Assembly (NCBI GenBank): GCA_025057155.1
Contig: JANWYD010000007.1
Coordinates: 1 to 64,000 of the forward strand
Source of the DNA: Chloroflexaceae bacterium
GTDB lineage: Bacteria; Chloroflexota; Chloroflexia; Chloroflexales; Chloroflexaceae
Length of the DNA stretch: 64,000 nt
Direction of reading: 5' to 3'
Shown: positions 4,566-52,736 of the stretch, piece by piece
Layout of the letters: every line of letters starts with the position of its first letter
Position numbering within the stretch: the stretch's first letter is position 1
Program-made: the position numbers and the translations under genes
Notes under the pieces: model-generated
What the model saw: the letters and a program-made list of their open reading frames with translations, nothing else
What the model was told of the DNA's origin: nothing
Database searches by the model: none

Positions 4566-4811
4566 TCACGAACGGAAGAAGTCGATCACTGAACTGCGTT
4601 CTTCCTCACTGGGCATTAGTTCGATGAAGGTAATGCGATGCCAGGGAAAGATCACCGCCTGCACCCCGGCAGCTAGGTAGCTGACCGGCTTGCCGTCGCG
4701 CTTGCGCATATTAAAGACGCGGATAAACTGGTCGCCCGGCTGAGGTTCGGCCTCGATCTCCGCCAGCAGCGGATCTTCGCCGGTCAGATGCAGAATGACA
4801 GTCTTGGCCAC
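4566..4811 (-). CDS. Small conserved hypothetical protein (81 aa)
   Basis: I do not recognise a named family. The protein starts MAKTVILHLTGEDPLLAEIE from an ATG at 4811 and ends in an acidic stretch before DFFRS. The alternation of hydrophobic and charged residues and motifs such as QFIRVFNMRKRDGK and VIFPWHRITFIELM suggest a small beta-rich soluble domain. It lies between the FHA-protein gene upstream and the CoA-lyase gene downstream, all on the minus strand, and could be transcribed with either. The reading frame is supported by good codon use and its position in an otherwise empty gap. Confidence 0.7.
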   Translation of the reverse strand: MAKTVILHLTGEDPLLAEIEAEPQPGDQFIRVFNMRKRDGKPVSYLAAGVQAVIFPWHRITFIELMPSEEERSSVIDFFRS

Positions 4812-4902: not shown

Positions 4903-5427
4903 TTATCCTATCTCGAATCGCAGCAGCAGCGTGCCGAGTTTCAATTCATCGCCCGAGCGAATGGGGAAGGGTTCCTGCGGCGGCAGGCGTCGCCCGTTCA
5001 CGAACGTGCCATTGGCGCTGGCCAGATCTTCGATGCAATAACTGCCGTTTTGCAGGGAGATCATCGCGTGGCGGCGCGAGACCCCGGCATCGTAGCCCCC
5101 ATCGAGGCCGAGATCCACGTCGGGGTAGATCCCGCGCTGGTTATCTTTGCGGCCGATGAGCAGGGTGTCGCCGGCCTCCAGGGTGATGCGCCTGCCGCTG
5201 TTGATCACCACCAGGGTAAAGGTTGGCGCCAGGCTCTCGGCTGGCGCGTCAATCACCAGCGGCTCGTTCATCGCGGAGGCCGGTTCTTCCCCCCTGGCCG
5301 CCGCGGCCCGATTGAGGGAAGCGGTGGTCTCACGGCGCTGCGGGTTGCCCAGCAAACTGGCGCCACACTCCGAGCAGAAAATTGCTCCGTCAAGTTGTTG
5401 CGCGTTACAGTGAGTACATCGCTGCAT
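4903..5427 (-). CDS. Zinc-ribbon and FHA-domain protein
   Basis: 174-residue protein that should bind phosphothreonine peptides. The start is the ATG at 5427 with GGGAGG just upstream. Residues 1-25 form a zinc ribbon (CTHCNAQ ... FCSECGASL, two CxxC pairs). A flexible Ala/Glu-rich linker follows, then a FHA domain from about residue 75: LLIGRKD, the phosphopeptide-binding SRRHAMI and SANGTFVNG. It is the last gene of a minus-strand group coding a Ser/Thr kinase, a PP2C phosphatase and a VWA protein, so it is probably a reader of kinase phosphorylation. A 354-base gap containing repeats separates it from the VWA gene, so co-transcription is uncertain. Confidence 0.9.
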   Translation of the reverse strand: MQRCTHCNAQQLDGAIFCSECGASLLGNPQRRETTASLNRAAAARGEEPASAMNEPLVIDAPAESLAPTFTLVVINSGRRITLEAGDTLLIGRKDNQRGIYPDVDLGLDGGYDAGVSRRHAMISLQNGSYCIEDLASANGTFVNGRRLPPQEPFPIRSGDELKLGTLLLRFEIG

Positions 5428-5555
5428 GCCTGCCTCCCTCGGCGGACTGGCGGGCGAACACAGGTTCGCTGCGCCAGTCGTTCGTATTTCGGTGCGGCTT
5501 TTTGGGTTAGACCATCTCTCAAAAGGGATTACGCTTGCGTTACGGTCTTGTACCG

Positions 5556-5640
5556 GCCCGCCCCCTCCCTGACCTTCCCCCGGCGGGGGAGGGTGGGGGA
5601 GGGGGCGGAGTTGCCGAAAAACTTCGTTCACAGAGTACTG
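5556..5640. repeat. GC-rich inverted repeat abutting MITE-like element
   Basis: Pyrimidine tract (CCCTCCCTGACCTTCCCCCGG) facing a purine tract (CGGGGGAGGGTGGGGGAGGG), then AAACTTCGTTCACAGAGTACT. The end sequence and the layout match the element at 12686-12824, and as there it directly borders the 140-bp element. Confidence 0.65.
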
Positions 5641-5641
5641 A

Positions 5642-5780
5642 GTAGTCTGTAAAGTAAGTTTCCTGGTGTTTGTCACCCCAAGCGGAACGAGGGGTCTACG
5701 GCGCCAGGAAGCGGAAGATGCTTCGCTTCGCTCAGCGTGACAGGGCGAGCGAAATCCGGAACACTTAATTCACAGACTAC
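5642..5780. mobile_element. MITE-like element with terminal inverted repeats, copy 1
   Basis: 139-bp non-coding element. Left end GTAGTCTGTAAAGTAAGTTTCC and right end GGAACACTTAATTCACAGACTAC are imperfect inverted repeats. The inside (TTTGTCACCCC...GCGGAACGAGGGGTCT...GGAAGATGCTTCGCTTCGC) matches the reverse complement of 12828-12967 almost throughout. It ends exactly one base before the stop codon of the VWA gene. No transposase is encoded. Confidence 0.8.
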
Positions 5781-7043
5781 TCAGTCCTGTCCCTCCCCCG
5801 GCCCCATCAATCCGCGCGTGCCATACTTAATGCGTTTGCGCCCTTCGGCGCTGGCGATGCCTGAGCGCAGCAGGCGGGTGGCTTCCTCCTGCACGGTGCG
5901 CGCGAGTTCGGTCTCCCCGGCCTCGAACAGGCGCGTGCCCGCCATTTGCAGGCGGCGCGTGGCCTCCTCGATCTTTCCCTCGGCGACGTCCTGCCATGCG
6001 CTGGCCTGCAACCGGTAGGCCACCAACCGTTCCAGCCAGTGCTTCACGGTTGGATCGACCTCATATGTCACGCTGTCGGCGGAGCGCACGGCGACCCGCA
6101 GGACCAGTTCGCCGTGCTGCTGCATCAGGTGCATGGCGGGAAGGTTGTAGGTCAGGTTCAAGCGCAGCAGAGGGTGGTCGCCAATGCCGAGAGAGGGAAC
6201 GACGACTTCGAGCAGCAGGGCCTGTGGATCGGCGCCGGACCAGTCGCCCAGGGGCGCGTTCCAGACCAGTTCCCGTTCCTCCAGCGCCTGCACCTTGCCG
6301 ATGAACGGGCGCACCCGATCCACTGAACGGAGCAGCGCGCCGGGGCGCAGTTCGCAGCGCAGGGTCATATCCTGCGCGAAGGTGGAGGACATGCGCCGGA
6401 CTTCATCGGTAAAGATCGCGCCGATCTCCGCTGCCGAAGTGATGAACTGGGTGCGGCTGCTCTCATGGGCGGCCATGGTTTCGAGCAGGTCTTCGTTCCA
6501 CTCGTTGCCGATGCCCAGGGCCGTCAGGCCGATGCCGCGATTCTGGGCGCGGCGGGCGATTTCGACGCAGCGGCCCTCGTCGCCGTAGGTGCGTCCATCG
6601 GTCAGCAGGAGAATGCGGCTCACACTCCGACCCAGCACCGGTTTCTGGATCTCCTGAAGCGCCAGGGCCATGCCCGTAGCCATCTCGGTGCCGCCAGCGG
6701 CCTCGATCATACCGATCTGGCGCTTCAATTCATTGCGGTTGCGAACCCGCTGCGCCGGAATAACGACTTCGGCGCGATCATTGAAGGTGATCAGGGCGAA
6801 GTAATCATCGGCATCGAGCATCTCCACAATGCGCCCGGCGGCCTCTTTCACCTGCTGAAGCCGTTCGCCGCGCATCGAGGAGCTGCGATCAATCACCAGG
6901 CAGAGGTTCAGGGGCAGCTTCGGCAGGGTCGCCGGCAGACCCTGGGCCGTTAGTTCGAGCAAAGCGTAGAGCAGTTGCGGCTCGTTGCTCGCGGCGAGCA
7001 CATTACGACTGAGGGTCACGCGAAGGGCGATGCCTGGGCCCAT
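5781..7043 (-). CDS. von Willebrand factor A (VWA) domain protein
   Basis: About 420 residues. A VWA domain begins near residue 45 with an intact MIDAS metal site: LVIDRSSSM (DxSxS), then a conserved Thr in GGTEMATGMAL and LLLTDGRTYGDEG. The remainder is a beta-rich region and a helical C-terminus. No signal peptide or membrane segment is apparent, so it is probably a cytosolic metal-dependent adhesion/scaffold protein. The start chosen is ATG 7043, with GGAG 8 bases upstream inside the end of the phosphatase gene; a GTG at 7049 overlaps that stop (GTGA) and is also possible. The tight junction implies translational coupling with the phosphatase. Confidence 0.9.
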   Translation of the reverse strand: MGPGIALRVTLSRNVLAASNEPQLLYALLELTAQGLPATLPKLPLNLCLVIDRSSSMRGERLQQVKEAAGRIVEMLDADDYFALITFNDRAEVVIPAQRVRNRNELKRQIGMIEAAGGTEMATGMALALQEIQKPVLGRSVSRILLLTDGRTYGDEGRCVEIARRAQNRGIGLTALGIGNEWNEDLLETMAAHESSRTQFITSAAEIGAIFTDEVRRMSSTFAQDMTLRCELRPGALLRSVDRVRPFIGKVQALEERELVWNAPLGDWSGADPQALLLEVVVPSLGIGDHPLLRLNLTYNLPAMHLMQQHGELVLRVAVRSADSVTYEVDPTVKHWLERLVAYRLQASAWQDVAEGKIEEATRRLQMAGTRLFEAGETELARTVQEEATRLLRSGIASAEGRKRIKYGTRGLMGPGEGQD

Positions 7044-7045
7044 AG

Positions 7046-8134
7046 TCACTGCTCCGTGCGCGGCAGGGTTACTACGATTGCCGAGATATTGTCGTCGCCC
7101 CCGGCCAGATTAGCCAGAGCGACCAGTTCGTCGCAGGCGTCCTGGGGCCACTGGCACTGGCTCAGGGTCTGTTCCATAGTTGCCTCGTCCACCAGGCTCC
7201 ACAGGCCGTCGGAGCAGAGCAGCAGATGCGAACTCTGGCCGACAGGCTGGTAGATGAAGTCTACCGGCACATGCGGCTGCTGCCCGACGGTGCGGTACAA
7301 CTGGTTGCGCAACGGGTGCTCGCGGGCTTCCAGGGGATCGAGCTGGCCAAGCTGGATGAGCCGGCCAACCGTCGAATGATCGGTCGTCAGGGGCCGCAGG
7401 CCGCCTGGTTCGTAGAGATAGGCCCGGCTATCGCCCACGTGGGCAATATAGAGACTATGGCCAACGAGGAGCGCGGCGGTGCAGGTGGTGCCCATGTCGC
7501 TGCCCAGGGCCTGCGCCGCGTCCCAGACGGCCTGGTTGGCGGCCTGCACCGCCGAGATCATGAGCGGTTGCAGGGCCTCGGTGGCGTTGTCGTCGAGGGC
7601 GGGCAGAAGAAGCTGGCTGAGGACATAGTTCACCACAGTGCGGACGGCCATGCGGCTGGCCAGTTCGCCGCCCTGATGCCCGCCCATGCCATCGGCGACG
7701 ATGAACAGCCCGATGCCGACATCGCCATTCTCACGGGGGAGTGAGGCCAGCATGGCAAAGCTGCTGTCCTGATTATTCTCGCGCACCCGCCCGACGTCGC
7801 GGGCCACGGCAACGGCGAGACCCTGCAGGGAGCGTCGCGCGCACACCGCGGGGGCGCTACTGGCATCGAGGTAGTGGGTCGAAGGCTCCGGGCCGCTGTC
7901 GTCGGCATCGGGAGGCGGTTGCAGGGGCAGGGTGGGCGTCTTCGCCGGATCAGGAGGCGCTTCCGGCAGGGGCGTCGCCTCTTGCGGCGGAGCGACTTCA
8001 ACGGGAGAGGCGTCCTCACTGGTCCACCAGGGCGGCTCTTCTGGCGGCGGGTCGGTGATAGAGCGAGGCTCGTTGCTCCCGCTCGCGGGGTGGTTGGCAT
8101 CGTCGGGATAGAATAGCTTGCCAAAGTGGATCAT
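7046..8134 (-). CDS. PP2C-family Ser/Thr protein phosphatase
   Basis: 362 residues. About 115 N-terminal residues are Pro/Glu-rich and probably disordered. The PP2C domain follows: VRENNQDSSF with a metal-binding Asp, FIVADGMGGHQGGELAS with the metal-binding DGMGG, LYIAHVGDSRAYLY, LLLCSDGLW and GGDDNISAIVV with the last metal-binding Asp. The enzyme should remove phosphate from Ser/Thr, most likely from targets of the kinase encoded next door. ATG 8134 is preceded by GGAG. It lies upstream of and coupled to the VWA gene; a 139-base gap separates it from the kinase. Confidence 0.95.
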   Translation of the reverse strand: MIHFGKLFYPDDANHPASGSNEPRSITDPPPEEPPWWTSEDASPVEVAPPQEATPLPEAPPDPAKTPTLPLQPPPDADDSGPEPSTHYLDASSAPAVCARRSLQGLAVAVARDVGRVRENNQDSSFAMLASLPRENGDVGIGLFIVADGMGGHQGGELASRMAVRTVVNYVLSQLLLPALDDNATEALQPLMISAVQAANQAVWDAAQALGSDMGTTCTAALLVGHSLYIAHVGDSRAYLYEPGGLRPLTTDHSTVGRLIQLGQLDPLEAREHPLRNQLYRTVGQQPHVPVDFIYQPVGQSSHLLLCSDGLWSLVDEATMEQTLSQCQWPQDACDELVALANLAGGDDNISAIVVTLPRTEQ

Positions 8135-8273
8135 GACAACTCCGACCGCGTCGAGACAATCTTAACCTTGACAGCCGGTTAGAGGAGAGCGGGGACGCCG
8201 GGGTTCTTCATATCCCTGCCCGGAGGCCCGGACGGGCGAAACCTGTCCAGAAACGCTCTTACTCCACCGGCAC

Positions 8274-10319
8274 TCATGCTTTCAACGCATAGATCTTCTG
8301 ATCCATTGAGCCAATATACACGATCCCTTCGGCGATGGCCGGCGAGGAGACCACCGGACCGCCGGTGGGATATTTCCAGATCAGGTTGCCCTGACCGGCG
8401 TCAAGGCAGTACACACAGCCGTCCACAGCCCCGAAGTACACCCGGCCAGCCTCTACCCGCGGCGAGGAAGTGATCTGGCTGCCCACCTCATACTTCCAGG
8501 CCAGGCGTCCCGTCTTGGCGTCGAGGGCGTAGAAAAATCCGTCTACACCGCCAACAAAGACGCGAGTGCCCACCACGCACGGTGAAGAATTCACATAATG
8601 ACCGGTGCGGAAGCGCCAGGCTGGCCAGCCGCCTTCGGCGTCCAGCGCATACAGGTTCTGATCAAGCGAACCGACATAGACCAGGCCCTCGCCGATAGCC
8701 GGCGAAGAGCGCACCGGCATCTGGGTGCGCTGTTTCCACTTCACCCCGCCGCTGCGCGCATCGAGGCAGTAGACGTGCCCATCGTCGCCGCCGATAAAGA
8801 TCGTCTGCCCGGCGATGCATGCCGACGAGCGGATTGGGTTCCAGGTGCGGTACTTCCAGATCAGCGTGCCGCGCAGCCCATCGAGGGCATAAATGTGCTG
8901 GTCATCGGAGCCGATGAAGACCACCCGATCCTCGATCCGCGGCGATGAGCGCACCGGTTTGGAGGTGCGAAAAGTCCAGCGCAGACCGCCGCGGCGCATA
9001 TCGCAGCAGTAGATCGCGCCATCCTCGGAACCGACAATGACGTTATCCTGCCAGACCGCTGGCGACGAACTGATGCCCGCCTCGGTGGCATACTTCCAGC
9101 GGAACTCGCCGCGCCCGGCGTCGAGAGCGTAGAGATTATGGTCATACGAACCGACAAAGAGCATGCCCCCGGTGACGCAGGGCGAGGAACGCACCTCATC
9201 TTCGCAGGCAAAGCTCCACACCAGGCTGGTGCTGGCGGCGCCCTTGATCGCTGCCGGCGCCGTGGCGCGAGGGGCGGCCGGCGTCTCGCCGATGCCTGGA
9301 ACGGCCAGCAAGGCTCGTTTCAGCTCCTCGGCGTTCTGCCAGCGGGCCTCCATATCATACTCGATGGCCTTGACGATTAACGCCTCCATTTCCGGCGAAA
9401 CCGAGGGGTTCAACTGGCGGATGGGACGCTCGTGGAAGGTGAAGGGCGTTTCCAGGCGCGGATCGGTATTAGTGAGCAGATGGTGCAAGGTGGCGCCGAG
9501 AGCGTAGATGTCCCCTACTGGCTCGGCGATGCCACGGTACTGCTCGGGGGGCGAGTAACCCTCGGTGCCGATCATGGTGCCCTTGCGATCGCTGCGATTC
9601 AGGGTGCGGGCGATGCCGAAGTCAATCAGCACAATGCGATCATCTTCGAGCACCATGATGTTGGACGGCTTCATGTCGCGGAACACGATCGGCTGGGGTT
9701 GGTGATTGTGGAGGTAGGCCAGCACATCGCAGATCTGCACGGCCCAGCGCCCCACGCGGACTTCGTCGAGAGGTTTGCCCGCTTCTTCGAGCACTGTCTC
9801 CAGGTCCTTGCCCTTAATCAGCTCCATGACCAGGTAGACGCGCCCATTTTCCTCGAAGAAGTCGTAGACCTTGGGAATGGCCGGATGTTGCAGGGTCGCC
9901 AGCAGACCGGCCTCGCGCTCGAAGTTCTTCAGATTGAGCAGGCGGGTGTGCGAGTCCGGGGCGCTCTGGGCCATTTCTTTGACCGCGCAGTAGCGCACCA
10001 CGTCCTTGAAACGCAGGTCCCGTCCGCGGTAGACCAGGCTCATCCCGCCGATGCCGATGGCCTCTTCAATCTGGTAGCGCCCCTGGAGCACGGCGCCGGG
10101 GGGCAGGAGCGGCATCGCGGCAGAGTTTCGGGGCGTGGGGGGATGTGCGGCGCCGACCTTCTCACCGGCAGCGCGGTTGGAATCAATGGCCCGGGCGCCC
10201 TCATCGGCGGCAGTATCGCCGACGAATGTTCGAGTTCCCTCCTCGGGGGGTGGAGCGGAAGCGCTTTCGGCTGGCGGAACGCTGAAGGCTTTCGTGCCGA
10301 CTTTCTTGATCAGACCCAT
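8274..10319 (-). CDS. Ser/Thr protein kinase fused to eight-bladed PQQ-type beta-propeller
   Basis: 681 residues from ATG 10319 (GAGG upstream). A low-complexity N-terminus of about 90 residues precedes a Hanks-type kinase domain: glycine loop AIGIGGMSLVYRG, lysine in YCAVKEM, catalytic loop VFRDMKPSNIM (Phe replaces the usual His of HRD, Asp kept), IDFGIAR and SPPEQYRG. After a short Ala/Pro linker come eight repeats of about 40 residues, each with an SSP motif, VYVGSxDxxxYALDA and a WKY-type strand, as in PQQ-binding propellers. There is no transmembrane segment between the two halves, unlike PknB/PknD kinases, so the propeller probably stays in the cytosol as a sensor or docking surface. 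First gene of the signalling cluster. Confidence 0.95.
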   Translation of the reverse strand: MGLIKKVGTKAFSVPPAESASAPPPEEGTRTFVGDTAADEGARAIDSNRAAGEKVGAAHPPTPRNSAAMPLLPPGAVLQGRYQIEEAIGIGGMSLVYRGRDLRFKDVVRYCAVKEMAQSAPDSHTRLLNLKNFEREAGLLATLQHPAIPKVYDFFEENGRVYLVMELIKGKDLETVLEEAGKPLDEVRVGRWAVQICDVLAYLHNHQPQPIVFRDMKPSNIMVLEDDRIVLIDFGIARTLNRSDRKGTMIGTEGYSPPEQYRGIAEPVGDIYALGATLHHLLTNTDPRLETPFTFHERPIRQLNPSVSPEMEALIVKAIEYDMEARWQNAEELKRALLAVPGIGETPAAPRATAPAAIKGAASTSLVWSFACEDEVRSSPCVTGGMLFVGSYDHNLYALDAGRGEFRWKYATEAGISSSPAVWQDNVIVGSEDGAIYCCDMRRGGLRWTFRTSKPVRSSPRIEDRVVFIGSDDQHIYALDGLRGTLIWKYRTWNPIRSSACIAGQTIFIGGDDGHVYCLDARSGGVKWKQRTQMPVRSSPAIGEGLVYVGSLDQNLYALDAEGGWPAWRFRTGHYVNSSPCVVGTRVFVGGVDGFFYALDAKTGRLAWKYEVGSQITSSPRVEAGRVYFGAVDGCVYCLDAGQGNLIWKYPTGGPVVSSPAIAEGIVYIGSMDQKIYALKA

Positions 10320-10397
10320 CGTCAACCTCTGCGGGCCGGGCGAGCCTGCGCCACAAATGAAGGAGGGAAATGCATGCGTATAGCTACACTGCGAACC

Positions 10398-10427
10398 ATT
10401 ATAGTGACGGAGCGTACCAGTTGGCAA
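10398..10427 (-). promoter_or_regulatory. Sigma70-type promoter for the kinase gene
   Basis: On the minus strand TTGCCA (10427-10422) and a perfect TATAAT (10403-10398) are 18 bases apart, about 80 bases upstream of the kinase start. No competing gene overlaps it. Confidence 0.65.
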
Positions 10428-10491: not shown

Positions 10492-11295
10492 CTAGGCAAT
10501 GACCGTGCCCTGGCCGGCGAGAGCCGCGCTGACGCATCCGGGACGCCGCGCGTCGCCGAGCACCACCCGGCGCACCCCCTGCTCCAGCGCCTCCTGCGCG
10601 CCGAGGATCTTCTTGCGCATACGGCCCTCGGCAAAGGCCAGGTTGGCTTCAATCTCATCGCGAGGGATACGGGTGATCAGGCTGCTCTCGTCGGGAAAAT
10701 TGCGCAGCAGGCCCGGCACATTCGAGAGCAGCAGCAGCGTCTCGGCCTCCAGCGCCGCGGCGATCGCCGCCGCCGCGCGGTCCCCGTCAACATTCAGGGC
10801 CTCGCCCGCCTCCGAGCAGGCCAGCGGCGCCACTACCGGCAGGTAGCCATTGTCGAGCAGCATCCGCAGCAGCGCCGTGTTCACCCGCTCGATTGCGCCC
10901 GTCCAGTCGTCGCGGAGCAGTTTCTGCCGCCCATCTTCGACGATGCGAATGGTCGCCTTGCGCTTGCCCTCCAGCAACCGCCCGTCGAGGCCGCTCAGGC
11001 CGATGGCGTTACAGCCGCGGCGCTGCAACCGTTCGACCAGCCCCTTGTTGACCAGCCCGCCCGTGGCCATCATAAACAACTCCAGGGTGCGCCGGTCGGT
11101 GTAGCGGCTGGTGTAGCCGCTGGGGGAGGTTACGAAGCGCGGCGGGTGGCCCAGCGCTTCGCCGAGCCGGTTGGTTTCATCGGAGCCGCCGTGGACCAGC
11201 ACGAGCCGTTCGCCCCGGGCATGGAGGGCGGCCAGGTCGTCGCAGAGGGCCTCGTAGTTGTTGCCGGCGCTGCCGCCGACTTTGATTACGTTCAT
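10492..11295 (-). CDS. lysZ: [LysW]-aminoadipate/glutamate kinase-type amino acid kinase
   Basis: 267-residue amino acid kinase, cytosolic. MNVIKVGGSAGNNYEALCDD, LVLVHGGSDETN, GHPPRFVTSPSG, RYTDRRTLE, NAIGLSGLDG, LNVDGDRAAAAIA and LLLSNVPGLL align with Thermus LysZ closely, more so than with the N-acetylglutamate kinase branch. The enzyme phosphorylates the side-chain carboxylate of aminoadipate (or glutamate) carried on LysW. The other lysine/arginine genes (lysX, lysY, lysW) are not in the window, so whether it serves lysine, arginine or both is open. Start ATG 11295 with GAGG upstream. An ArgB annotation is the main alternative. Confidence 0.85.
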   Translation of the reverse strand: MNVIKVGGSAGNNYEALCDDLAALHARGERLVLVHGGSDETNRLGEALGHPPRFVTSPSGYTSRYTDRRTLELFMMATGGLVNKGLVERLQRRGCNAIGLSGLDGRLLEGKRKATIRIVEDGRQKLLRDDWTGAIERVNTALLRMLLDNGYLPVVAPLACSEAGEALNVDGDRAAAAIAAALEAETLLLLSNVPGLLRNFPDESSLITRIPRDEIEANLAFAEGRMRKKILGAQEALEQGVRRVVLGDARRPGCVSAALAGQGTVIA

Positions 11296-11541
11296 AGTGC
11301 GCCTCGAACCCTGTAGTGGGAGCGGAAGCCGCCGGCTTCTGTTGTTCTTTATAAGCCGCGGTCTACCGATGCAAAGCACGCCGTCACGGGCTACACTGTT
11401 AAAGATCTTTAGCCCCTCCGGGTCCTCCCTCTCTGCACCAATCAAGATATACTGAGAGGGCGCAGCCTGCCCGGACAATGCCATCCAGGGCGTAGGTTTT
11501 ACGCCGCCGGTCTGGCTTAATCATATCCGAGGAACCCGTAG

Positions 11542-12827: not shown

Positions 12828-12967
12828 GTAGTCTGTGCATTCAATTTTCCGGCATTTCGCTCGCCCTGTCATGCTGAGCGAAGCGAAGCATCTTCCGCCT
12901 CCTGGTGCGACAGATCCCTCGCTCCGCTCGGGGTGACAAACACCGGGAAACTTAGTGCACAGACTAC
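12828..12967. mobile_element. MITE-like element with terminal inverted repeats, copy 2
   Basis: 140 bp, bounded by GTAGTCTGTGCATTCAATTT and AAACTTAGTGCACAGACTAC, about 25-bp imperfect terminal inverted repeats. It is in opposite orientation to 5642-5780 and matches it along its length. It carries no ORF of its own and would need a transposase elsewhere. Confidence 0.8.
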
Positions 12968-13004
12968 TAATGAAGATGAAGAAAATAGTCCAGTATTCCT
13001 GGAC

Positions 13005-23657: not shown

Positions 23658-24034
23658 CAGACTTCGCGAGCTTGCTGGACGCCGCGCGGCGGGCCACGGC
23701 GCTGGCCCATGCGCCGCGCACGGGGCGGCAGGGCGGGGCGGCGCTGCTGGCCGAGGACGGGCGCATCTTCGCCGCAGGCAACCTGGAGGTCGCCAACTAC
23801 GCCTCCAGCGTCTGCGCGGCGAAGGCGGCGCTGATCAGCGCCTGGGCCGCGGGCGCGCGCCGCTTCACGGCGCTGGCCGTGGCCGGCGCTGGCGCCGACA
23901 TGCCCTACCCCTGCGGCGACTGCCTGCAGGCCCTCATCGAGTTCGCCCCCGCCCTGCTGATCCTCAGCGAAGCCGATCTCGATCGCCCTGTGCCCATCGC
24001 CGATCTGTTGCCTGATGCGTTCGGGTTGGGGTAA
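23654..24034 (+). CDS. Cytidine deaminase-like protein lacking the catalytic glutamate
   Basis: 126 residues, full length for a homotetrameric cytidine deaminase. It aligns with the family throughout: GAALLAEDGRIFAAGNLEVA with the substrate-binding NxE, zinc Cys in SSVCAAKAAL, zinc pair PCGDC, then LIEFAP and the C-terminal DLLPDAFGL. In working enzymes the first zinc motif reads CAE, the Glu being the proton shuttle; here it is C-A-A (GCG codon), and the YAPYSKF segment is replaced by HAPRTGR. So zinc and nucleoside binding look possible but deamination does not, unless another acid substitutes. It overlaps the kinase-like gene by four bases. Confidence 0.85.
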   Translation: MTDFASLLDAARRATALAHAPRTGRQGGAALLAEDGRIFAAGNLEVANYASSVCAAKAALISAWAAGARRFTALAVAGAGADMPYPCGDCLQALIEFAPALLILSEADLDRPVPIADLLPDAFGLG

Positions 24035-24145
24035 GCCTCCGCCGTTCGCCTTCGATTTGAATGCCCCATACCACAGCGTCGCATCCCGTTGGGCGCTATG
24101 CCTGTCCGGAGAGTGCAAAAACGGCTTAAATGCAAGCTTTAAGGG

Positions 24146-25304
24146 CTATTTCTTTAACAGAAAATCGGCCTTCAAAACTTCTGGCGTTACTTCTTGCTCT
24201 CTTGGCAGATAAATTCTGACAGGGATCTCTAATTGCGACAAATATCTGCACATTAAAGGGTCTACCTCCCGCCAAGACAGACCTCCTAAACCACAACCCA
24301 GGGCTGGCATTGCAAGCGATATAATGCCTTCTTTTTAGTTATTTTTAATCCATTTCAACCCCTCCTCAATGCCTATAATATCAGAGCGTTCCCTCCAGTG
24401 TTTTTTGTTGGAAAAAGCAAAAAATCACTTGTTTGAATTAAGATTTGGAAGACCTGAAGGACCATCTGCAAGTTGTCTGTCGAAGTATGCTTCACGTTTA
24501 TACAAGGCGGGCTTGCCCATCATTAATATTTTCTTGCGACAAATATCTTGATAGTATACATAAACGTCAGGGAATTGATACTTTGCCCTGGACGCCAGCC
24601 CTTTACCCATTACATCTACGGTGTTTACGCTAATCGTAAGTGTTTGCATTTGTGAAAAGAACATATCCCCTTCGATAAGGTAAAGACTTTGAGTGATCTT
24701 GTGCTGCTGCTTAGGCTGAAAGAACATGTATGACTCTGGCATAATAGACACTTGCAATAGATGTATTAATTCCCTTACTTTCTTAGCTATAGTGTGATTC
24801 GCCACATAAATTGTATCAATTAGTTCAGAAGGAATGATATCAGGAACAAGACACTCGGCCATTATTTTGCGCTTGGAACCGTCTTCTTCTTTCCACCATT
24901 CATTGTTGATAATATCCCACATTTGAGAAATGCTCTTCAAGCTTTGTTCAGCAGATTGAATTTCTGATGTCGTTGCATTTCCTGTTGAAATAAATATATC
25001 TGATCGAGCAAGTAAATCTTGGCGAATTCTAAGAACAACTATGTCATCATTTCTTGTCTTGTATGACACGGTAAAGCATTGGATTGCGAGGTTGAAAGTA
25101 AACATTAGCAAACTCCCAAAGACTCTTGCCATCAGGCGTTGTTCTCTTTTGACGATTGCTCACTATTTGTGCGTCATAAATTGGTGTATAGTCGATGCCT
25201 TTCGCTTCCACGAGAGCGTGTGACAGTATGCCCTCTTGAAGGATGGAACGAATATTATTGATATGCGTAATGTAATAGAGACCTTTGATAGGAGGCTTCT
25301 TCAT
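24146..25304 (-). pseudogene. darTG: Decayed darT-darG toxin-antitoxin fusion (DNA ADP-ribosyltransferase + macrodomain)
   Basis: Reads 25304 to 24146. DarT part: GLYYITHINNIRSILQEG and ANVYFQPRNPMLYRVIQDKK, then a one-base frameshift near 25050-25058 (an extra A in AAGAAATG). It resumes with NDDIVVLRI, ARSDIFISTGNATTS and KIMAECLVPD, which holds the catalytic-Glu position, and ends LLQVSIMPESYMFF. The frame runs on without a stop into a DarG macrodomain: LYLIEGDMF, TISVNTVDVMGKGLA, FPDVYVYYQDIC. In-frame TGA at 24427 (NSNK*FFAFSNKKHWRERSD, Trp expected) and TAA at 24337 (WIKNN*KEGII) interrupt it. MPALGCGLGGLSW and a stop at 24146 follow. DarT puts ADP-ribose on thymidine in DNA; DarG removes it. 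The locus is AT-rich, unlike its neighbours. Confidence 0.88.
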
Positions 25305-25739
25305 AGTACCCCTAACCTTTCAAGAGTTGAGCGGCACAGTTGTTCAACTAATAATATAAAGTCTGCGGTCTCCTTTCAGGAGACAGAGCTTGTGCAAAGT
25401 CTGTCTCATGCGGCGGATTTGGGGCCAACCTCACGAAGTTTGCACAAATCCTATTTCAGGAGGCGGCTGAACAGTTGAGTTACAGGCCCGCATCACCTGA
25501 GTGGTTTGGCAAAGACGTCCGCCTGATTTTTGCCACCCTAAGCGCATTCAATGCTATACCCTGTTAGCAAGCGGGATATGCTTTATCTAGCTCAACATTA
25601 CAGAGCGAATAACGTACTGGGAAACCTTAATTCACAGAGAAAATATCTTGAAGTCCTGTTCGAAGGTTTCTACATAACCGCCCGCGGCCCCGCCGCCACT
25701 GGCCGGCGACCGAACCGCGGGCAGGGTGACGGGGCGAAA
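25305..25739. other. Rest of AT-rich island, no gene seen
   Basis: 435 bases upstream of the darT remnant. Contents: a perfect hairpin GTCTCCTTTCAGGAGAC at 25368-25384; a 9-bp inverted pair TTGTGCAAA (about 25391) and TTTGCACAA (about 25441); and near 25600 ACTGGGAAACCTTAATTCACAGA, which resembles one end of the MITE-like element. The GC-rich base composition of the chromosome resumes at about 25680. No ORF here looks coding. Confidence 0.55.
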
Positions 25740-26015
25740 CTACTCCGCCGTCGTCGGGTCAATCACCGTTCGGACCTCGGAGATGCGATTGGCCGGAAAG
25801 CCACCCTTTTCCGCGTGTTCCCGGATCGTCGCTTCGTCGGGCGCGATGTACACGCAGTAGATCTTGTCGTCGGTGACGTAGCTGTGCAGCCACTGGATCC
25901 GCGGCCCCATGCCGTGCAGCACGTCGCACGATTTCTGTGAGATGGCCTGCAACTCCTGGGCCGAGAGCTTGCCCGCTCCAGGAAGCTCGCGCTCGATCAC
26001 GTACTTTGGCATCAT
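25740..26015 (-). CDS. DUF4242 / SCO4226-like small protein
   Basis: 91 residues, start MMPKYVIERELPGAGKLSAQ at ATG 26015 with a perfect AAGGAGGT upstream. The fold signature is a ferredoxin-like barrel: YVIERELPG, LHSYVTDDKIYCVYIAPDE and IREHAEKGGFPANRISEVR. DUF4242 relatives include a nickel-binding protein of Streptomyces; a metal role here is conjecture. It is monocistronic, next to the AT-rich island. The gap 26016-26342 upstream contains a GGGAAACCCTCGTTCCC palindrome near 26036 and otherwise nothing recognised. Confidence 0.85.
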   Translation of the reverse strand: MMPKYVIERELPGAGKLSAQELQAISQKSCDVLHGMGPRIQWLHSYVTDDKIYCVYIAPDEATIREHAEKGGFPANRISEVRTVIDPTTAE

Positions 26016-49205: not shown

Positions 49206-50258
49206 ATGGCCTACTACATTCGTGAAACCCTCGCGGATCGCCCGGCCCTCAGTCCGCGGCGGCCAACCATCAACGAGTTTTTTCTCTCCAGCTATACGCT
49301 CAGCATCTATTCCGGCTGCGAGCTGGGCTGCCCCTACTGCGATAGCTGGATCTACCAGGAACGGCCACTGAACGAACAGATATACGTTCCGCTCGACCTG
49401 CCGCAGCGCCTCGCCGCCGAACTGCGCGATGTGGATCGCGGCGACCTGATCGCCATTACCGCACTGAGCGATCCGTACCAGCCCGCCGAGCAGATCTACC
49501 GCCTGACCCGCCAGACGCTGCAGGTGCTTGCCGAACGAGAACAACCTTGCCTGTTGCTTACCAAGAGCGCCATGGTGCTGGAGGATAAACCGCTGCTCCA
49601 GCGTATGAATGAGCGCAGCCTGGCAGTGGTGATGACCACGCTGGTGACCGTCGATCCGCACCTGAGCGAACGGCTGGAGGGCAAAGCGCCGGCGCCGGGG
49701 TTGCGCCTGGAAATGCTGCGCGAATTGAAGCGCGCTGGCGTGCCGGTGGGGGTGGCAATCGTGCCTATTATCCCCTATGTCACTGACCGGCAGACTGCCC
49801 TGCGCTCAATGGTGCGGGCCTGCGCTGACGCGCAGGTTGACTTTGTGATCTGGGATTATCTGCACATTCCCAACCAGCACCACTGGATACGCATCAACGA
49901 ATTACTGGCCCGGCTGGGAAACTATCCGGTTAGTTACTACCGCGATCTTTACCGCGATCAGCCCACCGTCAATGCGCTCTACCGGCAGGAGATTGACCGC
50001 GAGTTGCTTGACCGTTGCGATGGTCTTGGCCTGGAGGCGCGTGTGCCGCATCGCATCTTTACCCGGCGGCTTGCGCCGCGTAACGAGGCGGCCCTGCTGC
50101 TCAAACATGCCGCGTTCCGCAATCGCGTCCAGGGTCGCGAGCTGGTCGCGGTCAAGGAGCGGGCCCTGGCCGATCAGGTCTACGCGGGAACGATCGATCC
50201 GGCCGCGCTGCGCGAGAGTTCCCTGTACCCGTTGCTGAGCGATGTGCTGGGGCTGTGA
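49206..50258 (+). CDS. Radical SAM protein (SplB/Rv2578c-like)
   Basis: 350 residues from ATG 49206. The Fe-S cluster motif is SGCELGCPYCDSW (CxxxCxxC, near residue 38). VPLDLPQRLAAELRDVDRGD, ITALSDPYQPAEQ and LLLTKSAMVLEDKPLL match the spore photoproduct lyase-like/COG1533 branch of DNA-repair-like radical SAM enzymes. MTTLVTVDPHLSERLEGKAP and GVAIVPIIPYVTD continue the barrel. Substrate unknown; SplB itself repairs spore photoproduct in DNA, but COG1533 members are diverse and this organism type does not sporulate. Confidence 0.88.
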   Translation: MAYYIRETLADRPALSPRRPTINEFFLSSYTLSIYSGCELGCPYCDSWIYQERPLNEQIYVPLDLPQRLAAELRDVDRGDLIAITALSDPYQPAEQIYRLTRQTLQVLAEREQPCLLLTKSAMVLEDKPLLQRMNERSLAVVMTTLVTVDPHLSERLEGKAPAPGLRLEMLRELKRAGVPVGVAIVPIIPYVTDRQTALRSMVRACADAQVDFVIWDYLHIPNQHHWIRINELLARLGNYPVSYYRDLYRDQPTVNALYRQEIDRELLDRCDGLGLEARVPHRIFTRRLAPRNEAALLLKHAAFRNRVQGRELVAVKERALADQVYAGTIDPAALRESSLYPLLSDVLGL

Positions 50259-50319
50259 TTCTCTGGCTGCTGAAGGAAGCGCGCCGCCCGCTCCCCGACG
50301 CCGACAGGTGCGGCCGGTA

Positions 50320-50358
50320 AGGGCGCACCGGCTTCCCCCATGCGCCCGTGCTCCACGG
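50320..50358. repeat. Half-copy of the GGTTTCCCC palindrome family
   Basis: GGGCGCACCGGCTTCCCCCA then TGCGCCCGTGCTCCACGGTAA: the tail matches the one after the palindrome at 1768 (GCCCCTGCTCCACGGTT). A TATAAT box at 50397-50402 follows and may drive the next gene. Confidence 0.5.
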
Positions 50359-50441
50359 TAATCGCGAAGCTGTGTCATAGCGTGGCGAGAGTACGTTATA
50401 ATCGGACGGCCAGCACGCAGTGAGGGTGGCTTGCTCCGCGT

Positions 50442-52736
50442 ATGATGAAAGCCGCATCTGATCCACCGGCCAGGAAGACCGTGATCGCCCGGTCATTGCC
50501 CGAGGCGCTCCGTGTTTTTCTGGCGGCCGCTATCGCTCTGGCGCTCCTGTGGGCCGCATCTGCCGCGGTGTGGCCCCTTACGATTGACGTAGGGGGCAAC
50601 GACCACCGGTTCGCGCGGGGCTTCCACGAACCGGAGCAGTTGGGCGGGCGTTCCATGCGCTGGACGGATGGGGACTCGACCCTGCGCCTGCCCCGGCCGC
50701 CCGCTGGCGCACCCTCTGTTCTAGAACTGGAGTTGCTGGATAGCCGCCCCGAACGTTCAGTTCCCCTGGTCGTCAGGCTCAGCATTGACGATGCCGAGGC
50801 GACCTCGCTCGTCTTACACGGCTACTTGCCGCGGAACTACCAGGTGCTGCTGCCGTCGCGCCTTTCCGTCAGCGGGGTGGTGAAGGCGCGTCTCCAGAGC
50901 AACGCGCCCCTCATCGCGAGCGACGGGCGTCACCTGGGGGTGGTGGTCTTCGACGCGACGCTCATGCCCCTACGCGGCGCCCTGTTGCCGGATCTATGGC
51001 TCGCCATGTGCGCGCTCGGCGCCGGCGCGCTCGCCTACGCCACGCTGCGTCTCGCCGGAGCGGGCAGCCGACTCGCGCTGGCAAGCGCCTGCGCCGGTGC
51101 GGCCCTCATCGCTCTGGGCGTGGCTCTGCGGCCACTGGAGGTGCTGCCCTATCTCGGGCACTTCGCCGCGATCGCCATCGTCGCCTGCCTGGGGGTGCTG
51201 ATCGTCCGACTTATCGTGCCGCTGGCCCCGGCAGACTCCCGGCCCCCCGGTAAATCAGAGGCCCGGTTGCTGGTCGTCGGCGAGCACGCCGCGATCGTGC
51301 TGGCCGTGGCCTACTGGATGGCCATTCTCTACCAGCAATTCATGGTCTGGGACGGCGCTACCGCCCTTGGCCCCTCGCCCTGGACGGTCGGGGTCGGCGT
51401 GGCGCTGGCGGGCGCGCTGGGATTGGGGGGGCCGCTCTGGTGGGCGTTGCGGGGCTGCCGGTTGCCTCCGAGGGAACGGCGAATCCGCGGCGCGCAGATC
51501 GCCCTGGTGGTGCTGGCCGGCGCCGCGGGGATTCACCTGAGCTGGAGCCTGTGGTACGCCTTCACGCGCCAGGCGCCCGACTTCTGGATCCTCTTCCGCG
51601 GCGCGCGCGCCTGGGTGCATGGCGGTTCGCTCTACGATCTGGAGGCGGTTGCGACCAATCATTTCGGCCATGTCTTCAAGGTGCCGCCATTCTACGGGAT
51701 GTTCTTCGTACCCCTGGTGCGCGCCTTTGATGGCCAGAGCGTGCTCGTGGCTCACCGCGTCATGAACGTCGCTTTGATCATCGCCACGGCCCTGCTCTGG
51801 CTGCGCATGTGGCGCATCCCCCTGATCTCCCTGAGCGCGGCGGCCCTGCTGATCGTGTTCAATTTTCGCCCCCTGGCCGACACGATCGCCTTCGGGCAGA
51901 TTGACCTGGTGCTGTTGGTTGTGCTGACCGCGGCGCTCTGGGCGCTGCGCGAAGAACGCGATGGCCTCGCAGGGGCGCTGGTGGCCCTCGGCGCGCTCTT
52001 CAAACTCTATCCGGTCATCCTGCTGGTCTTCTTCGCGCTCAAACGCCGCTGGGCCGGGCTGTGGGGCTTTGTCCTGGGGATGCTGCTCTTTAATGGCATC
52101 GCCGTCGCCGTGATGGGCTGGGAGATGCACCGCGTCTACCTCTTCGACGTGCTGCCGAAGATCGGCGGCACTACGGCCTGGATCGAGAACCAGACCCTTA
52201 CGGGCTTCGTGGCCCGGCTGGCAGCCTCGCCCATGTCGGCGACCATTTTTCAGGACCAGACGCTGCGGTTGCTAGGTATGGCGCTGTCGGCAGGCGTGGC
52301 GCTGGCGGTGTGCGCCCTGGCTCTCATCCCGTTCGACCGGCGCAGCCCGGCCTTCGCGCTGCAGTACGGCCTCTTTCTATTGCTGATGGTCCTGTGCGTC
52401 CCGGCGGCCTGGATGCACTACGAAACCCTGCTGGTGATCCCCTTCGCCGCCATGCTGTTGCGCCTGTGGGGACAGCGGACGCCCCTGGGGTACATGCTGG
52501 CGCTGGGGTTGAGCTTCGCGCTGATCGCCTACGGCAACCAGTGGTCGTTCTTCAACGGAACGGTGACGGGCGTATTGAGCCTGCTGGGCATCTCCTACAA
52601 GCTGTACGGCATGCTGCTGCTTGGATTCCTGTCGAGCGCGGCGCTCCTGGCGGCGCGGCGGCCCGTGGTCGCCGCGCCGGGCGAGCGGGTCGCCGCGGCT
52701 GGCGAAGCGCCGGTGGGCGTCACCCCAGGCGGGTGA
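50442..52736 (+). CDS. Multi-span membrane glycosyltransferase (GT87/DUF2029-like)
   Basis: 764 residues. After a short cytoplasmic part and a first span (VFLAAAIALALLWAASAAVW) comes an extracytoplasmic beta domain of about 130 residues, then about 12 hydrophobic spans. LVAHRVMNVALIIATALLWLRMW, FGQIDLVLLVVLTAALW and LFKLYPVILLVFFALKRRWAG are the GT87 core (the FGQxN-like loop and KLYP motif). Such enzymes use polyprenyl-phosphate mannose on the outer face to build glycolipids or glycoproteins. The N-terminal lumenal domain is not typical. Its 3' end overlaps the TadC gene on the other strand by 17 bases. Confidence 0.82.
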   Translation: MMKAASDPPARKTVIARSLPEALRVFLAAAIALALLWAASAAVWPLTIDVGGNDHRFARGFHEPEQLGGRSMRWTDGDSTLRLPRPPAGAPSVLELELLDSRPERSVPLVVRLSIDDAEATSLVLHGYLPRNYQVLLPSRLSVSGVVKARLQSNAPLIASDGRHLGVVVFDATLMPLRGALLPDLWLAMCALGAGALAYATLRLAGAGSRLALASACAGAALIALGVALRPLEVLPYLGHFAAIAIVACLGVLIVRLIVPLAPADSRPPGKSEARLLVVGEHAAIVLAVAYWMAILYQQFMVWDGATALGPSPWTVGVGVALAGALGLGGPLWWALRGCRLPPRERRIRGAQIALVVLAGAAGIHLSWSLWYAFTRQAPDFWILFRGARAWVHGGSLYDLEAVATNHFGHVFKVPPFYGMFFVPLVRAFDGQSVLVAHRVMNVALIIATALLWLRMWRIPLISLSAAALLIVFNFRPLADTIAFGQIDLVLLVVLTAALWALREERDGLAGALVALGALFKLYPVILLVFFALKRRWAGLWGFVLGMLLFNGIAVAVMGWEMHRVYLFDVLPKIGGTTAWIENQTLTGFVARLAASPMSATIFQDQTLRLLGMALSAGVALAVCALALIPFDRRSPAFALQYGLFLLLMVLCVPAAWMHYETLLVIPFAAMLLRLWGQRTPLGYMLALGLSFALIAYGNQWSFFNGTVTGVLSLLGISYKLYGMLLLGFLSSAALLAARRPVVAAPGERVAAAGEAPVGVTPGG

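Follow-up and report, generated by a model that had tools for sequence, protein, structure and literature searches.

In a 64,000-nucleotide stretch of DNA from a Chloroflexaceae bacterium (contig JANWYD010000007.1, positions 1 to 64,000; hereafter the window), five neighboring genes on the minus strand, encoding a Ser/Thr kinase with a propeller, a PP2C-type phosphatase, a VWA protein, a zinc-ribbon/FHA protein and a small protein that we call p5, form a conserved operon and not a chance cluster (Table 1). Profile searches, structural modeling and analogy with described systems suggest that these five genes probably encode an Arn-like switch of Chloroflexota that acts in the cytosol through protein phosphorylation. 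Judged by sequence profile and by model, its nearest described counterpart is the archaeal pair ArnA/ArnB and not type VI secretion. An original prediction, made from the sequence alone, had described four of these genes on one strand, and all four are present with profile matches to the named domains. It had placed the cluster at 4903-10427, where the genes indeed lie, whereas the limits required correction: the kinase, VWA and FHA genes begin at ATGs at 10319, 7043 and 5427, and the operon runs on past the FHA gene to 4566, the fifth gene included.

The operon is conserved in content and order. A kinase query against a contig collection with one genome per species (84,980 species) returned 292 relatives, and the best 80 loci were used. 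Nearly all belong to Chloroflexota; two loci from metagenome-assembled genomes labelled Gracilibacteria (L039) and Bacteroidetes (L083) are probably misbinned and were retained in the counts. Gene order was counted at the 60 of these 80 loci for which at least 4.5 kb of downstream sequence was taken, the other 20 being too short. The kinase, PP2C, VWA and FHA genes follow one another on the same strand and in the same order at 53 of the 60, and the failures include one locus (L070) that keeps the order but has a 593-base gap, over the limit set. Scattering of the genes in relatives, which the original prediction had named as a refuting condition, was therefore not seen; its view of the four as one unit is supported, except that p5 had been missed. 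The open-licence literature in PubMed Central yielded no account of this operon.

The kinase matches Pkinase (E 1e-41) and Beta-prop_ACSF4 (E 8e-92), and its catalytic K, D, N and DFG residues are intact in every one of the 81 sequences aligned. The alignment with relatives, which begin MxLIKK, starts at the ATG at 10319 (MGLIKK...); this shared start and the position of the promoter support that start codon, and a start at 10427 is excluded because that position lies inside the −35 box. The promoter itself, called good in the original prediction, is borne out as a consensus match. The propeller displays eight blade anchors with an exact 40-residue spacing and a mean ungapped blade identity of 45%, and a scan of the kinase found no membrane helix, no stretch being hydrophobic enough (19-residue Kyte-Doolittle mean, maximum 1.36); hence the description of the kinase as cytosolic with an eight-bladed propeller holds. 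Such a cytosolic kinase-propeller layout is already known from AfsK (PMC1262709) and RqkA (PMC11007091). A quinone ligand made in the cell was considered and rejected on weak evidence, a search of the genome for PqqE having found none above the cut-off. The phosphatase scores 223 bits against the Stp1 family (cut-off 230), and its PP2C aspartates are invariant in relatives, gaps aside. A role in defence was also considered and set aside: PADLOC matches fall on the kinase domain (among them PD-T4-6 and Mad6) and, weakly, on the PP2C protein, with none for the FHA or VWA protein.

The likeness to ArnA/ArnB lies in the other two proteins. Against the PDB, the VWA profile matches ArnB (8s05_A, 1.6e-20, columns 44–386). 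An AlphaFold2 model of the VWA protein (predicted local distance difference test score, pLDDT, 91.6) superimposes on ArnB over 371 residues spanning 3–413 (Z 30.9) and on the ArnB paralog VWA2 with a Z of 26.1; in Foldseek, Sec23/24 rank lower than ArnB and the actinobacterial VWA protein 4fx5. The predicted metal-ion-dependent adhesion site (MIDAS) was confirmed, D52, S54, S56, T119 and D149 being invariant in 31 of 31 members. For the FHA family profile the best PDB matches are both ArnA (5a8i, 1.2e-15; 8s05_C, 1.6e-15), and the ArnA alignment covers the N-terminal four-Cys zinc ribbon and the C-terminal FHA domain alike. Residues R93, S117 and N139 of the FHA domain are conserved, and the Cys and phosphothreonine-binding residues are invariant in the alignment of relatives. 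In the model of this protein the linker between the two domains has low confidence (pLDDT about 52–62), in keeping with a flexible stretch. The FHA protein is taken to start at its ATG at 5427 and no earlier, because the upstream frame crosses a dispersed repeat. A threonine motif, [YF]xTRx[LM], closes the VWA protein at 62 of 63 complete C-termini (frames running into a contig end were excluded); in the window protein it lies where the final helix ends. Together with the ArnA/ArnB homology, this tail strengthens the link between the FHA and VWA proteins that had been proposed earlier.

FHA domains have a preference for the residue at +3, and a Thr-[Arg/Thr/Gln/His]-x-hydrophobic motif is common to the VWA tail and to the N-terminal tails of kinases and phosphatases, and is weaker in the FHA linker. 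In kinase N-tails the motif is often repeated (for example DDGTRQI, GNTTRSV, PDATRGI), with 103 matches in 46 of all 81 tails (shuffle mean 6.5, maximum 15 of 500). When kinases more than 75% identical were thinned, the 30 non-redundant N-tails held 25 matches to TR.[LIVMF] (shuffle mean 1.97, maximum 8 of 2000), and T[RTQH].[LIVMF] occurred in 24 of the 30 (shuffle mean 6.5, maximum 14); for the same 30 kinases the serine version of the motif gave 1 match and the reversed motif 0. The phosphatase N-tails, chosen as a negative control, proved enriched themselves (13 of 26 non-redundant tails, shuffle mean 5.4), so kinase bodies and 177 unrelated genes were added as controls; neither showed a motif excess (14 versus 17 expected and 31 versus 36 expected, respectively). 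FHA domains favor phosphothreonine (PMC10470591, PMC6509490).

The genome of the window holds a second PP2C-VWA-FHA cluster (contig C15, 119752–123990; L090) whose VWA tail reads YATRRL, and VWA paralogs within such clusters keep this sequence, with two exceptions (L132, with Ala at the Thr position, and L111, where the motif is lost). In a lone VWA paralog, found on contig C9 of the same genome and in eight family members, Thr has become Gly in 9 of 9; this paralog keeps KTVRL just past the lost Thr, and L121 is without the Arg too. VWA proteins of Deinococcus, Meiothermus and Cyanobacterium have no such tail, and none of them has an annotated FHA neighbor. The paralogous cluster is likewise seen at L122–L129; in other genera of the family, a kinase domain is encoded ahead of its VWA gene.

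The fifth protein, p5, gave no significant match to Pfam, NCBIfam or PDB profiles and no match in a plasmid collection, and comparison rejected it as an FHA relative; it is a conserved protein family lacking annotation in the libraries searched. Its gene is adjacent and on the same strand at 61 of 65 loci with room for it, single-copy in the window's genome, and present in 45 of 151 genomes of the phylum, 32 of the 45 (counted by eye) having a VWA gene within about 2.5 kb. At loci without VWA and FHA genes it stands directly after the PP2C gene (L048, L054, L079) or directly after the kinase gene (L077, L105), which makes the kinase and p5 the tightest partners. In a third arrangement (L106, L108, L109), p5 relatives lie beside an FHA gene, with no propeller kinase within the stretch fetched. 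An OmpR-type response regulator gene directly follows p5 at many Anaerolineae loci (Pfam was run on L044 and L053 only).

For the archaeal proteins, the zinc finger of ArnA is described as binding unphosphorylated ArnB loosely, and the kinase ArnC as phosphorylating threonines in the C-terminal helices of ArnB, leading to tight binding by the ArnA FHA domain; the phosphopeptides include ETTRR and QTR (PMC6509490, PMC12852372). A corresponding switch in Chloroflexota would work as follows. Kinase activity presumably depends on a ligand or partner at the propeller. The kinase would phosphorylate T-[RTQH]-x-hydrophobic threonines in its own N-tail, in the phosphatase N-tail and, above all, at Thr409 of the VWA protein, to which the zinc ribbon may hold the FHA protein loosely beforehand. 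We infer that the FHA protein then docks on the phosphothreonines of its partners, tightening the complex in the cytosol. In Chloroflexia with an ETT linker, phosphorylation of the linker could let the FHA domain bind itself, as in GarA/OdhI, and PP2C would reset the switch. The fifth protein may work closely with the kinase or with the complex, as co-sensor or output. A more far-reaching version, which we hold only tentatively, is a self-contained phospho-assembly system across the phylum, in which a T-R-x-hydrophobic "phosphothreonine code" on the tails of kinase, phosphatase, scaffold and adaptor would allow the FHA protein to assemble them all, as a homologue of ArnAB with p5 as co-sensor or effector.

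Several observations weigh against an Arn-like switch. The VWA and FHA genes are absent while kinase, PP2C and p5 are kept at L048, L054 and L079, and L077 and L105 keep kinase and p5 alone, indicating that the VWA-FHA pair is dispensable to the kinase. The actinobacterial VWA protein 4fx5 outscores ArnB as a match to the model (Z 37.6 versus 30.9), so a common fold alone is no proof of Arn function, and Pfam ArnB_C (PF18677) matches 4 of 31 members weakly (best E 0.13). Conservation of the VWA tail motif may have a structural cause, with G408 and R410 conserved as strongly as T409; moreover, Pro replaces its Thr at L045, Ala stands there in the clustered paralog of L132, and no single Thr of ArnB is reported to be essential (PMC12852372). 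The FHA linker shows a modest enrichment of the motif (13 of 22 against a shuffle mean of 5.9 and a maximum of 12), with the serine control slightly raised too, and the N-tail starts were set by rule and not by experiment.

The surroundings of some loci raise the alternative that the operon is a cell-wall growth controller resembling PknB/PstP/FhaB/RodA/PbpA, in which the kinase and FHA protein would regulate RodA-PBP2 elongation and the VWA protein would be an accessory scaffold. Immediately upstream and in the same orientation, L031, L032, L034, L035, L037, L038 and L040 have genes of rodA/ftsW type, and the order at L048, L054 and L079 is PBP2-rodA-gltX-kinase-PP2C-p5; the linkage is thus present at 10 of the 66 loci whose upstream sequence reaches 1.5 kb or more (Pfam confirmation for L037, L032 and L048 only). 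All 32 FHA members also match the FhaB model, but the protein of the window reaches 47.1 of the 125 bits required, the kinase has neither a PASTA domain nor a membrane helix, and the linkage is missing at most loci; the three rodA/ftsW genes of the window's genome are all on other contigs. We consider this account rather unlikely, although the rodA/PBP linkage hints at a cell-wall role in the lineages that have it. The linker of the FHA protein brings to mind a metabolic switch like GarA/OdhI, with the FHA protein binding and inhibiting metabolic enzymes until its own ETT is phosphorylated and the VWA protein as a second client. The OdhI model aligns with residues 34–171 (8.9e-13), a span that takes in both the ETT motif and the FHA domain, and most Chloroflexia members carry an R[EDQG]TT-type linker. 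Yet the score of 48.2 bits is far below the OdhI cut-off of 200, the ETT form is missing from most Anaerolineae members, no metabolic gene is conserved as a neighbor across the phylum, and one source calls GarA unique to Actinobacteria (PMC12321487), making a metabolic switch distinctly improbable.

The propeller in turn might suggest a stress or DNA-damage kinase similar to Deinococcus RqkA, one in which the propeller would respond to a quinone or to DNA ends, repair and division proteins would be phosphorylated as a result, and the remaining genes would be accessory. RqkA, with the same layout, is reported to be stimulated by pyrroloquinoline quinone (PQQ) and DNA ends (PMC11007091), and Saccharolobus ArnA/ArnB are described as acting in the DNA damage response (PMC10470591). 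However, no repair gene is prominent among the conserved neighbors, and PqqE is below cut-off in the genome, though PQQ import is possible. PQQ-type repeats, moreover, frequently bind no PQQ, and we give this account slightly less credence still than the metabolic one. The original prediction had drawn a comparison with the threonine phosphorylation pathway of type VI secretion (PpkA/PppA/Fha), of which the operon could be a version or a remnant. The three activities are alike, and a kinase + VWA protein is described for P. aeruginosa (PMC1262709), but the kinase here carries a propeller and the VWA is a protein of its own. The FHA protein scores 46.7 bits with the TagH model, below its cut-off of 120.25, and VipB was not found in the genome although an E. 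coli control was positive. We reject this comparison on the TagH and VipB results and regard a type VI origin as extremely improbable.

Table 1. Features of the operon and its surroundings in the window.
Feature	Position	Strand	Remarks
Promoter, sigma-70-type, TTGCCA-18-TATAAT	10398..10427	-	11/12 consensus positions; consensus match alone
Ser/Thr kinase with C-terminal eight-bladed PQQ-type propeller, 681 aa	8274..10319	-	ATG 10319
TRTF motif, Thr29, kinase N-tail	10224..10235	-	Motif enriched in relatives; proposed FHA docking site
PP2C-type Ser/Thr phosphatase with N-terminal tail, 362 aa	7046..8134	-	PP2C_2 1.3e-16
THYL motif, Thr86, phosphatase N-tail	7868..7879	-	Motif class enriched in relatives; proposed docking site
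VWA, beta-sandwich and C-terminal helix bundle protein, 420 aa, ArnB-like	5781..7043	-	ATG 7043; VWA E 7e-26
YGTRGL, residues 407–412, end of last helix of VWA protein	5808..5825	-	Thr409, proposed phospho-site
Dispersed inverted-repeat element between VWA and FHA genes	5636..5778	-	Outside the mechanism
Zinc-ribbon and FHA protein, 174 aa, ArnA-like	4903..5427	-	ATG 5427; FHA E 2.9e-19
ETTASL, residues 33–38, zinc ribbon-FHA linker	5314..5331	-	Position of GarA/OdhI ETT switch; enrichment modest phylum-wide
p5, 81-aa protein	4566..4811	-	Found via all-against-all comparison of locus neighbors

The inverted-repeat element is 143 bp long, with ends AGTAGTCTGTGAA.../...TTTACAGACTACT; a second copy in the window lies at 12830–12968, and the genome has 42 matches, mostly fragments. 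Just upstream of the operon promoter, at 10492–11484, lies a [LysW]-aminoadipate kinase gene (453.9 bits, cut-off 223), found beside the operon at L009 and L010 only among the 80 loci. Elsewhere in the window, positions 24001–26000 have a GC content of 0.46 versus about 0.67 over most of its length, perhaps reflecting a recent insertion, and positions 50001–52000 have a strong AT skew (−0.245), far from neighboring values.

Parts of the operon recur in other known systems. Actinobacterial GAP1-N2 systems likewise place a kinase, PP2C and a standalone vWA protein side by side; these sets are tied to GTPase conflict systems, and their description in that source mentions no propeller (PMC7159879). 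On cyanobacterial plasmids the same protein classes come together in VWA-FHA-PP2C clusters, one of which includes an FHA kinase; however, the gene order is different, the kinase has an FHA domain and no propeller, and p5 was not found in the plasmid collection. Two of these clusters (L134, L135) adjoin a beta-lactamase-like serine hydrolase gene and a second VWA gene. The actinobacterial operon comprises PknB-PstP-FhaB-RodA-PbpA and shares a kinase, PP2C and an FHA protein with ours, and rodA (with PBP2) adjoins in some Chloroflexota lineages; in contrast, the VWA protein and p5 are present here, and the kinase differs as described above. Deinococcus RqkA (DR2518) and Streptomyces AfsK are likewise Ser/Thr kinases with PQQ-type propeller repeats, although the window kinase, at 273.6 bits, misses the AfsK equivalog cut-off of 1300. 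GarA/OdhI share the ETT motif N-terminal to the FHA domain (residues 33–35 here) but differ from the window protein, which has a zinc ribbon and a VWA partner in addition and misses the OdhI cut-off.

The comparison with ArnA-ArnB of Sulfolobus (PDB 8S05/5A8I; VWA2 5A8J) links a switch known from Sulfolobales, of a kind by which archaea control swimming, to a bacterial operon. Because writer, eraser, substrate and reader are encoded in one operon, the reaction could be rebuilt with five purified proteins, with VWA Thr409, kinase Thr29 and FHA R93 and S117 as residues to test. Both systems have a zinc-ribbon and FHA protein, together with a protein built from a VWA domain, a sandwich and a C-terminal helix bundle that bears Thr-Arg motifs in its C-terminal helices. 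The ArnA and ArnB genes have consecutive locus tags (Saci_1210/1211), and an archaeal kinase and phosphatase are reported to act on ArnB, whereas the Chloroflexota set lies entirely in one operon, adds a fifth protein and comes with no archaellum. The kinase carries a propeller here and OB/TPR domains in the archaeal system, and the phosphatase is PP2C here and PP2A there.

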